A stretch of 64,000 nucleotides of DNA, from positions 1-64,000 of the forward strand of contig JAJYOK010000015.1 in the NCBI GenBank assembly GCA_021796215.1, read 5' to 3'. The DNA is from Bacteroidota bacterium. GTDB lineage: Bacteria; Bacteroidota; Ignavibacteria; UBA10030; UBA8401. Of this stretch, positions 22,276 to 54,763 are shown in pieces; the stretch's first letter is position 1; every line of letters begins with the position of its first letter. The position numbers and the translations under genes were made by a program. Under the pieces are notes generated by a model, which had not been told where the DNA came from, searched no databases, and was given only the letters and a program-made list of their open reading frames with translations.

Positions 22276-23358
22276 ATGGGAACGGTCATTCCGATTTCAA
22301 ATCAAGACAGGTACAGATCGCAGCCTAACAACAATTCTTCTCGGCCTTTGGCTGATCAGCCTACGGCTGAGCCGCACGACGGCGCGCTGCTTGATGCGTA
22401 CTCTGCAGCAGTCATCGAAGTTGTTGATAAAATTTCGCCAACAGTTGTAAAAATCGAGGTGTCGCACCATATTCCACGGCGGCGCGGAAATCAACGCGAA
22501 GAAAATATTTCAGGAAGCGGTTCAGGTGTTATCTTCACGCCTGATGGATTTATTCTTACCAACAGCCATGTTGTTCACAAAGCCGCTGCGATCAGCGCAA
22601 CGCTTTCCGACGGGCGAAATTTCAAAGCGTCGCTCATCGGCGACGATCCGTTCACAGATTTAGCAGTGATTCGCATTGACCCCGCTTTCGGCGGGGCAGG
22701 CATGCAAAATCTTCCGGCAGCAATATTGGGAGACTCGCAGGCGATCCGTATCGGTCAGCTTGTCATCGCAATCGGAAATCCGTTTGGATTTCAAGCGACA
22801 GTCACGGCTGGCGTTGTTAGTGCATTGGGAAGATCGCTGCGTTCCGGCGGCGGACGTTTAATTGACAACGTTATTCAGACAGACGCGGCATTGAATCCGG
22901 GAAATTCCGGCGGTCCGCTCGTCAACAGCCGCGGCGAAGTCATCGGAATCAACACGGCAATGATTCCGTGGGCGCAGGGAATTTGTTTCTCTATTCCTGT
23001 CAACACCGCAAAATTCATTGCCGCCAGATTAATGAAAGACGGCCGCATTACGCGCGCGTGTCTCGGCATCGGCGGGCAGGTGCTTGATATTGCAAAGCCG
23101 GCACTACGAGCACACCAACTTACCGGCTCACGCGGTGTGATGATTGCTTCCATTGAACACGGCGGCGCGGCGGAAAAAGCGGGGTCGCTGGAGGGAGATG
23201 TAATTATTGATTTCAACGACACACGGGTTGAAAGTATTGACGATCTCCACCGGCTTCTTACAAGCGACATGATCGGACGAGAAGTACATCTCACTGTTTT
23301 ACGTATGGAGAAAAAAATAGCACTCGTCATTGTTCCCGAAGAACTTCCGGGTCAATAG
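22276..23358 (+). CDS. HtrA/Deg-type serine protease with PDZ domain, no signal peptide
   Basis: 360-aa trypsin-like protease. The catalytic triad is visible: His98 in LTNSHVVH, Asp128 in FTDLAVIRID, and Ser211 in NPGNSGGPL. One PDZ domain follows at about residues 255-355 (GVMIASIEHGGAAEKAGSLEGDVI). The N-terminus is hydrophilic with no signal peptide or anchor, so it should be cytoplasmic, unlike most HtrA proteins. AGGAGG before the ATG supports this start. Two palindromic elements are embedded in frame: residues 22-32 (22340-22371) in the N-terminal tail, and about 135-141 (22680-22696) between the Asp strand and the NLPAAILGDS segment. Confidence 0.92.
   Translation: MGTVIPISNQDRYRSQPNNNSSRPLADQPTAEPHDGALLDAYSAAVIEVVDKISPTVVKIEVSHHIPRRRGNQREENISGSGSGVIFTPDGFILTNSHVVHKAAAISATLSDGRNFKASLIGDDPFTDLAVIRIDPAFGGAGMQNLPAAILGDSQAIRIGQLVIAIGNPFGFQATVTAGVVSALGRSLRSGGGRLIDNVIQTDAALNPGNSGGPLVNSRGEVIGINTAMIPWAQGICFSIPVNTAKFIAARLMKDGRITRACLGIGGQVLDIAKPALRAHQLTGSRGVMIASIEHGGAAEKAGSLEGDVIIDFNDTRVESIDDLHRLLTSDMIGREVHLTVLRMEKKIALVIVPEELPGQ
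22340..22371. repeat. GGCTGATC REP-like palindrome inside the htrA-type gene
   Basis: Inverted repeat with outer arms CTCGGC/GCTGAG and a central GGCTGATCAGCC. It encodes PLADQPTAE in the disordered N-terminus. A related hairpin lies between genes at 53750-53785. Confidence 0.65.
22680..22696. repeat. CCCCGC/GCGGGG palindrome inside the htrA-type gene
   Basis: Six-base arms around a 5-base loop in the coding sequence. It encodes an extra DPAFGGAG loop where related proteases run almost directly from the Asp strand to the next conserved segment. Confidence 0.5.
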
Positions 23359-25867: not shown

Positions 25868-25890
25868 ATCCCGACTTGTCGGGATTTTTT
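25868..25890 (+). terminator. Terminator-like hairpin directly before the ABC permease start
   Basis: Stem ATCCCGAC/GTCGGGAT followed by five more Ts, ending only 13 bp before the ATG at 25904. No room remains for a separate promoter between hairpin and start. It may be an attenuator, or a second end for the upstream transcript. Confidence 0.6.
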
Positions 25891-48441: not shown

Positions 48442-48514
48442 GGGGCTGTAGCTCAGTTGGGAGAGCGCTTCGTTCGCAACGAAGAGGTCGTCGGTTCGAT
48501 CCCGATCAGCTCCA
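48442..48514 (+). tRNA. tRNA-Ala(CGC)
   Basis: 73-nt cloverleaf. Acceptor stem GGGGCTG/CAGCTCC (one G-U) with discriminator A, D-arm GCTC...GAGC, anticodon stem CTTCG/CGAAG with loop TTCGCAA giving anticodon CGC, variable loop, and TPsiC arm with GGTTCGATC. The next bases are CA, so CCA is not fully encoded. A displaced copy of its 3' end follows 103 bp downstream. Confidence 0.95.
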
Positions 48515-48587
48515 CAAGACAATTTACGATAATTGGTAACTGCGCTTCATTTTTCAGAACCGTGAGGGCGTGGCGCCACAGGCGCCA

Positions 48588-48618
48588 AGGTCGTCGGTTC
48601 GATCCCGATCAGCTCCAC
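48588..48618 (+). pseudogene. Displaced 3' fragment of tRNA-Ala
   Basis: 31 bases identical to 48485-48515, running from the variable loop through the TPsiC arm to the acceptor end plus one base. The 5' part of a tRNA is absent. The 72 bp between carry a GGCGCC-rich palindrome (GTGGCGCCAC, 48570-48579) and no ORF. It looks like the leftover of an insertion that rebuilt the tRNA, or of a partial tandem duplication. Confidence 0.85.
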
Positions 48619-54305: not shown

Positions 54306-54314
54306 ATGCAATGT

Positions 54315-54390
54315 CGGAACGGCGGGATTCGAACCCGCGACCCCTACCACCCCAAGTTCCAAAGGAATCCCTTTGGGAGTAGTGCGCTAG
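54315..54390 (-). pseudogene. Displaced, hairpin-interrupted 3' part of tRNA-Pro
   Basis: Bases 54315-54356 and 54379-54390 are identical to 54690-54731 and 54732-54743 of the intact tRNA-Pro. Between them a 22-nt hairpin sequence (54357-54378) interrupts the anticodon stem. The acceptor 5' strand and most of the D-arm are missing, so it cannot be a tRNA. The GIY-YIG stop codon lies in its CTAG. Confidence 0.92.
54357..54378. repeat. 22-nt hairpin inserted in the displaced tRNA fragment
   Basis: Perfect 7-bp stem CCAAAGG/CCTTTGG with loop AATC, flanked by TT and GA. It is absent from the intact tRNA at the same point, so it is a clean insertion. Confidence 0.85.
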
Positions 54391-54656: not shown

Positions 54657-54743
54657 AAAAAAAGTCTCACAAGGAGACTTTCATGTAGTCGGAACGGCGG
54701 GATTCGAACCCGCGACCCCTACCACCCCAAGGTAGTGCGCTAG
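54391..54743 (-). mobile_element. Candidate tRNA-targeting GIY-YIG element (353 bp)
   Basis: The unit begins in the D-loop of tRNA-Pro and supplies a new 3' part of the tRNA (54 nt). It adds a terminator and the GIY-YIG gene, and ends where the old 3' part of the tRNA resumes. Thus the upstream tRNA is whole and the old tail is displaced. The flanking direct repeat is 54 nt apart from the later 22-nt insertion. The boundaries are exact by sequence; mobility is inference. Confidence 0.7.
54654..54681 (-). terminator. Terminator of intact tRNA-Pro, abutting the GIY-YIG start codon
   Basis: Stem AAAGTCTC/GAGACTTT with a 5-nt loop, then TTTT on the minus strand running straight into the ATG of the nuclease gene at 54656. 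Any expression of the nuclease must read through it or start inside. Confidence 0.85.
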
Positions 54744-54763
54744 CCGGGCTGCGCTACGTTCCG
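54690..54763 (-). tRNA. tRNA-Pro(GGG)
   Basis: 74-nt cloverleaf on the minus strand. Acceptor stem CGGAACG/CGTTCCG, D-arm GCGC...GCGC, anticodon stem CTACC/GGTAG with loop TTGGGGT giving anticodon GGG, TPsiC arm CGCGGGTTCGAATCCCG. CCA not encoded. The 3' 54 nt are duplicated downstream at 54315-54390. Confidence 0.95.

Follow-up and report, generated by a model that had tools for sequence, protein, structure and literature searches.

The window, by which we mean the whole 64,000-nucleotide stretch of DNA that was analyzed, contains an intact tRNA-Ala(CGC) gene followed by a displaced copy of its own 3' end (Table 1). The 31 nt at positions 48485 to 48515 (AGGTCGTCGGTTCGATCCCGATCAGCTCCAC) recur at 48588 to 48618 with zero mismatches, at an offset of 103 bp and across a 72-nt spacer. 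The copied segment starts in the variable loop, at tRNA position 44, takes in the T arm and the acceptor strand on the 3' side, and ends one base beyond the discriminator; the T loop of the displaced piece is intact. The palindrome directly touches the displaced fragment and thereby closes the spacer. When the intact sequence, GAGAGCG[CTTCGTTCGCAACGAAG]AGGTCG, is compared with the displaced one, GAGGGCG[TGGCGCCACAGGCGCCA]AGGTCG, the palindrome is found to have the same length as the anticodon arm. The 3'-most bases of the spacer portion that precedes it, GTGAGGGCG, are similar to the end of the D arm of the tRNA, GGGAGAGCG, and on this basis the spacer may contain an additional tRNA remnant. 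An initial annotation, made from the sequence alone, had described the 31-nt repeat, the 103-bp offset, the gene-less 72-bp spacer, and the GC-rich palindrome, and all of these held. It had missed that the hairpin abuts the fragment, matches the anticodon arm in length, and takes the place of that arm.

About 6 kb away lies a tRNA-Pro(GGG) unit with the same anatomy, in which, as had also been claimed, the intact tRNA comes first and the fragment lies behind it. Here, the intact gene and its displaced 3' end are separated by an ORF for a GIY-YIG nuclease, whose TAG stop codon falls inside displaced tRNA sequence. Twelve nucleotides of the D/anticodon region of tRNA-Pro (54379 to 54390) precede the displaced 3' end. 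The terminator beyond that end is the one found behind the tRNA in G001, a sister species in which the site is empty, and the ORF has a dN/dS of 0.07 relative to its ortholog in a second sister species, G002. No ORF was found within the 72-nt spacer of the tRNA-Ala unit, so that the unit itself lacks the nuclease. The initial annotation had proposed one mechanism for both loci, with tRNA-Ala as a nonautonomous or decayed unit; this fits, because the anatomy is shared and the GIY-YIG ORF is missing. We infer that the tRNA-Ala unit is an ORF-less cassette, either a decayed remnant or a nonautonomous unit acted on in trans, although action in trans was not observed and whether the unit was formerly complete cannot be told. 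The unit shows no sign of movement of its own, and its downstream flank is too diverged to tell which side is old.

TABLE 1 Coordinates of the features described in the window
Feature	Position	Strand	Evidence or remark
Intact tRNA-Ala(CGC)	48442–48514 (end 48514/5)	+	ARAGORN; Rfam RF00005, 67.1 bits
31-nt repeat, source copy (from tRNA position 44 through one base beyond the 3' end)	48485–48515	+	Sequence comparison
Spacer portion before the hairpin, without ORF	48516–48570	+	Possible further tRNA remnant
Hairpin TGGCGCC-ACA-GGCGCCA, 17 nt, at the place of the 17-nt anticodon arm	48571–48587	+	
Displaced tRNA-Ala 3' end	48588–48618	+	Sequence comparison
Intact tRNA-Pro(GGG), in an ORF-bearing unit of the same kind as tRNA-Ala	54689–54763	-	ARAGORN; Rfam
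GIY-YIG nuclease ORF, 89 aa	54387–54656	-	Pfam PF01541, E 1e-13
22-nt palindromic insertion in displaced tRNA-Pro	54357–54378	-	
Displaced tRNA-Pro 3' end, 44 nt (positions 33 to end)	54313–54356	-	
Dispersed double-hairpin copy, in frame in coding sequence	22341–22370	+	Tied to the tRNA-Ala finding only via the hairpin family

The genome to which the window belongs (G000) is a 3.37-Mb draft with 46 tRNA genes, about one-third of which have a displaced 5' or 3' piece, in most cases bearing a hairpin. By reading of the flanks, 3' pieces lie behind Ala_cgc, Pro_ggg, Pro_cgg, Asn, Ser_tga, Ser_gga, Ser_cga, Thr_cgt, and Val_gac, and 5' pieces lie before Pro_cgg (two), Pro_tgg, Ser_tga (three, 62 bp apart), Leu_caa, Val_cac, Asp, and Gly_ccc; Ser_cga has an apparent 5' piece across a contig break. 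The pieces are 15 to 70 nt long, may derive from the 5' or the 3' end of the tRNA, and in most units are identical to the intact copy. Tandem arrays of pieces occur at Thr_cgt and Ser_tga. In a test for chance matches, with flanks masked for other tRNAs, 15.9% of tRNAs reached a local-alignment score of ≥15 against their own flanks, compared with 0.5% against the flanks of other tRNAs and 0% in antisense; the tRNA-Ala repeat scores 31. Most of the 12 GIY-YIG matches in the genome are beside tRNAs with a piece, except for three of another class, and most ORFs of the one class sit between an intact tRNA and its displaced piece. The many pieces elsewhere in the genome favor the initial annotation over simple old tandem duplication, the outcome that it had said would refute it; the 5' pieces and the breadth of the phenomenon had escaped it.

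G001 and G002 belong to the same genus as G000, and all three are multicontig drafts. The tRNA-Ala(CGC) gene of G001 stands alone, with the adjoining cNMP-binding gene kept, and thus represents an empty site. In G002, the same gene is followed by 79-bp units, at least three in tandem, each with the hairpin TGGCGCC-AGC-GGCGCCA and the same 31 nt. The spacers of G000 and G002 look related, and the hairpin stem is kept between them, while its loop and the spacer have diverged. Since the site is empty in one species and occupied in the other two, the tRNA-Ala unit is polymorphic within the genus. Other relatives have different pieces or none at this tRNA, and ORF-bearing units are found there in two further genomes (G026 and G028). 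The fragment is therefore not carried by all relatives, which again favors the earlier reading.

Presence and absence at the same site in close relatives are also seen for Pro_ggg, Asn, and Leu_caa. At Pro_ggg, Asn_gtt, and Ser_tga, the sequence beyond the displaced piece is the sequence found behind the tRNA in the empty species, which indicates that the piece is the original end and that the intact tRNA and the ORF are the insert. This identity of the piece with the old end of the resident gene at several loci was likewise missed by the initial annotation. The displaced remnant at Thr_cgt in G001 matches the allele of the other two species, and the alleles of Val_cac and Pro_tgg in G000 have been replaced, with 14 differences. 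The incoming tRNA alleles are clearly foreign for Val_cac and Pro_tgg and are likely to be so for Thr_cgt and Pro_ggg. Apart from these four, no intact tRNA allele looks foreign, and divergence between occupied and empty alleles was not significant overall (P = 0.26, 0.04, and 0.07); allele replacement is thus not general. At Pro_cgg of G001 (L186), the tRNA is followed by ATGTATTACACTTG, which almost matches the opening codons of the GIY-YIG ORF at that site in G000 and is likely a relic of a lost unit.

A GC-rich hairpin abuts the inner border of 40 of 75 pieces, compared with 1.9% of control points, but under a strict test hairpins are not detected at every break. Breakpoints are concentrated at both borders of the anticodon arm, with 30 observed against 6.6 expected, and in the T loop, with 41 observed against 20 expected. 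Their overall bias toward loops is modest (154/209, 65% expected; P = 0.004). Borders at 31 and 18 nt from the 3' end recur in many tRNAs. Within displaced ends, hairpins are found at the position of the anticodon arm, the T loop, or the D loop, and at three loci (L234, L239, and L240) there are insertions with both sides of the tRNA retained. The tRNA-Ala hairpin is of a single type, with six copies in G000, three of them at tRNA pieces; besides tRNA-Ala, the type is found at the Pro_cgg and Pro_tgg pieces and at Pro(cgg) pieces of other families. A 30-bp double hairpin (doublet) recurs in displaced tRNA pieces beside the nuclease ORF. It has 23 copies in G000 (controls, 0) and is scattered through 27 of 60 related genomes, again without control matches, and its stems covary: 116 of 124 hairpins are complementary at the two pairs left free by the search pattern. 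The hairpins might inactivate the displaced copy or protect it against cutting or recombination, but this is a guess, and their role is unproven.

Two further hairpins in the window lie away from tRNA genes. The doublet at 22341 to 22370 adds ten codons (RPLADQPTAE) to an apparent HtrA/DegP-type protease gene. The hairpin at 25869 to 25884, TCCCGACTTGTCGGGA, is of a type also present in displaced tRNA pieces and appears here to be intergenic.

Among 118 genomes sampled from the phylum, 74 had ORFs of this class that matched a profile built from five tRNA-associated GIY-YIG ORFs. Of 89 such ORFs whose loci were read, 70 are within 250 bp of a tRNA, all 70 on the tRNA strand, and a cognate displaced piece is present at 61 of these 70. 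Most of the remaining 19 are at tRNA pieces, arrays of pieces, or RNase P RNA. A sister class of small GIY-YIG ORFs, comparable in size and from the same genomes, used as a control, was never near a tRNA (0/30; Fisher P = 1.5e-15). The ORFs encode about 80 to 90 aa, are the only genes inside ORF-bearing units, and belong to family PF01541, with the catalytic residues Y6, Y17, G19, R27, H31, and E63 invariant. They are under purifying selection, with dN/dS values of 0.07, 0.13, and 0.24 (no host-gene yardstick). The same anatomy is present in genomes of one or two contigs (G086, G121, G113, and G065), and, in Patescibacteria, the order of a 5' piece with hairpins, ORF, and intact tRNA recurs at several tRNA-Ser genes. 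Arrays of ORFs occur in G110 and G089.

At one locus (L110:1591-2092), a gene other than a tRNA shows the full anatomy: the intact SRP RNA gene is followed by a GIY-YIG ORF and then by a displaced piece of SRP RNA, in which there are two insertions. An ORF of the same class apparently lies within the RNase P RNA gene in two genomes (L273:930-1644 and, on the reverse strand, L266). It seems to occupy the loop of a long perfect stem (24 bp in L273), with the RNA extended rather than duplicated. This stem is likely the P3 region; the RNase P boundary given by cmscan is doubted because a better-pairing 5' strand lies upstream of the ORF. At two other loci, L289 and L267, eight and at least three GIY-YIG ORFs, respectively, stand in tandem, and hairpin-bearing pieces resembling tRNA-fMet and tRNA-Asn lie between the units.

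We favor, with a probability of roughly 0.63, the reading that the tRNA-Ala repeat marks the junction left by a small selfish cassette, of a free-standing homing type, that resides in structural-RNA genes. The anatomy, the empty and filled sites, the displaced piece at the ancestral flank of several loci, the specificity of the ORF class for RNA genes, and its purifying selection are shown, whereas nuclease cutting, homing, and action in trans are inferred. In this model, a complete cassette would comprise the GIY-YIG nuclease ORF and a copy of the tRNA (or of the displaced half). Upon its entry, one side of the insert would carry the restored tRNA, and the other would keep the former 3' or 5' end of the resident gene next to its original flank. 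The nuclease is inferred to cut, most likely, the tRNA gene that lacks a cassette; an occupied copy would then serve as the repair template, which would spread the cassette, and recombination between the direct repeats would produce tandem arrays. Neither cutting nor homing was observed in this analysis, which was made without experiment and on draft genomes.

A bolder reading, which is no more than possible, is that nuclease ORFs and hairpins belong to a single mobile system: during the insertion reaction, hairpins would replace arms of tRNA, SRP, and RNase P RNA genes or be inserted into their loops, and the dispersed hairpins would be products of the same machinery. If this is true, mobile bacterial palindromes would gain a candidate enzyme and a target rule, namely, structured RNA genes. 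The natural empty and filled sites in sister species make such an origin of mobile hairpins testable. The cassette reading would explain common small GIY-YIG proteins (74/118 genomes), previously unassigned, as occupants of structural-RNA genes and would show how a selfish gene survives inside essential single-copy genes by rebuilding them.

The most serious rival is that a neighboring GIY-YIG enzyme, or slippage, tandemly duplicates the tRNA and that the spare copy decays by deletion and hairpin insertion, so that the pieces are ruined duplicates rather than the junctions of inserted cassettes. This remains possible: there are tandem arrays of pieces and of ORFs, the piece is identical to the intact copy in most units, and SegB does so in phage T6. 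However, amplification and decay alone leave unexplained the ORF between intact tRNA and piece at so many loci, the older-allele piece at Thr_cgt of G001, the ancestral flank beyond the piece, and the recurrent borders at 31 and 18 nt. That the displaced pieces function as RNA for the host or the element (as a decoy tRNA, a processing signal, or a protector of the ORF transcript) is unlikely. The kept stem of the Ala hairpin and the covariation of the doublet stems would be consistent with such a function, but the wide range of piece lengths, the origin of pieces from both ends, and their absence from the same tRNA in close relatives speak against it.

The duplication of a tRNA 3' end in direct orientation would also be expected of the scar of an integrative element that uses this end as attL/attR. 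We consider this very improbable, as the 72-bp spacer holds no recombinase, ORF-bearing units hold only the nuclease ORF, 5' pieces are equally present, and hairpins lie at the inner border; such an att site was rejected since no recombinase gene lies between the repeats in any unit. An artifact of metagenome assembly at repeats might be suspected because G000, G001, and G002 are multicontig drafts and some contigs end in repeats, but it is all but excluded by the same anatomy in the one- or two-contig genomes and in unrelated Patescibacteria assemblies. A group I or II intron in the tRNA was rejected as well; no intron family was found at E ≤ 0.01 in 16 loci, and the tRNA is intact.

No description of the cassette system was found in the open-access literature, the only literature searched, and this tRNA-squatting type of selfish DNA is apparently undescribed there. 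By sequence, the closest solved relatives of the ORF are UPF0213/YhbQ-like GIY-YIG proteins (PDB 1zg2 and 1ywl), the entries for which are labeled as hypothetical proteins. In behavior, the nearest tested enzyme is SegB, a free-standing GIY-YIG homing endonuclease of T-even phages that cleaves within tRNA genes and causes them to be amplified in tandem (PMC13096335, PMC2988022). On the opposite strand, its motif, RAWTSGAAC, corresponds to the T-loop consensus. The idea that the hairpins always break a SegB-like T-loop site was dropped, given the T loop of the tRNA-Ala piece. SegB acts in phage tRNA clusters, and the relevant sections of those papers report no displaced, hairpin-bearing tRNA ends. 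A search of phages for a source of the cassette ORF gave none, nor any close relative.

The double-hairpin elements of fungal mitochondrial DNA and the palindromic elements of Rickettsia are short dispersed hairpins that also occur in frame in coding genes. The doublet described here differs in being a 30-bp covarying element that recurs next to a nuclease ORF, within displaced tRNA pieces, and the Ala hairpin is single. By analogy, the nearest anatomy is that of fungal mitochondrial mobile endonuclease ORFs that replace the end of a gene, known from Allomyces atp6 and from Glomus atp6, atp9, cox2, and nad3 (PMC3630166). In these, an endonuclease ORF (GIY-YIG in Glomus atp9) brings a replacement 3' end, and the native end is displaced downstream; the corresponding pattern, with the native end at the ancestral flank and the gene end rebuilt, is seen at Pro_ggg, Asn_gtt, Ser_tga, and, in G001, Thr_cgt. 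The fungal elements occupy mitochondrial protein genes and affect the 3' end only, whereas the putative cassettes described here occupy bacterial structural-RNA genes at the 3' or 5' end, encode a nuclease of only about 80 to 90 aa, have hairpins in the displaced end, and include ORF-less units such as that at tRNA-Ala.
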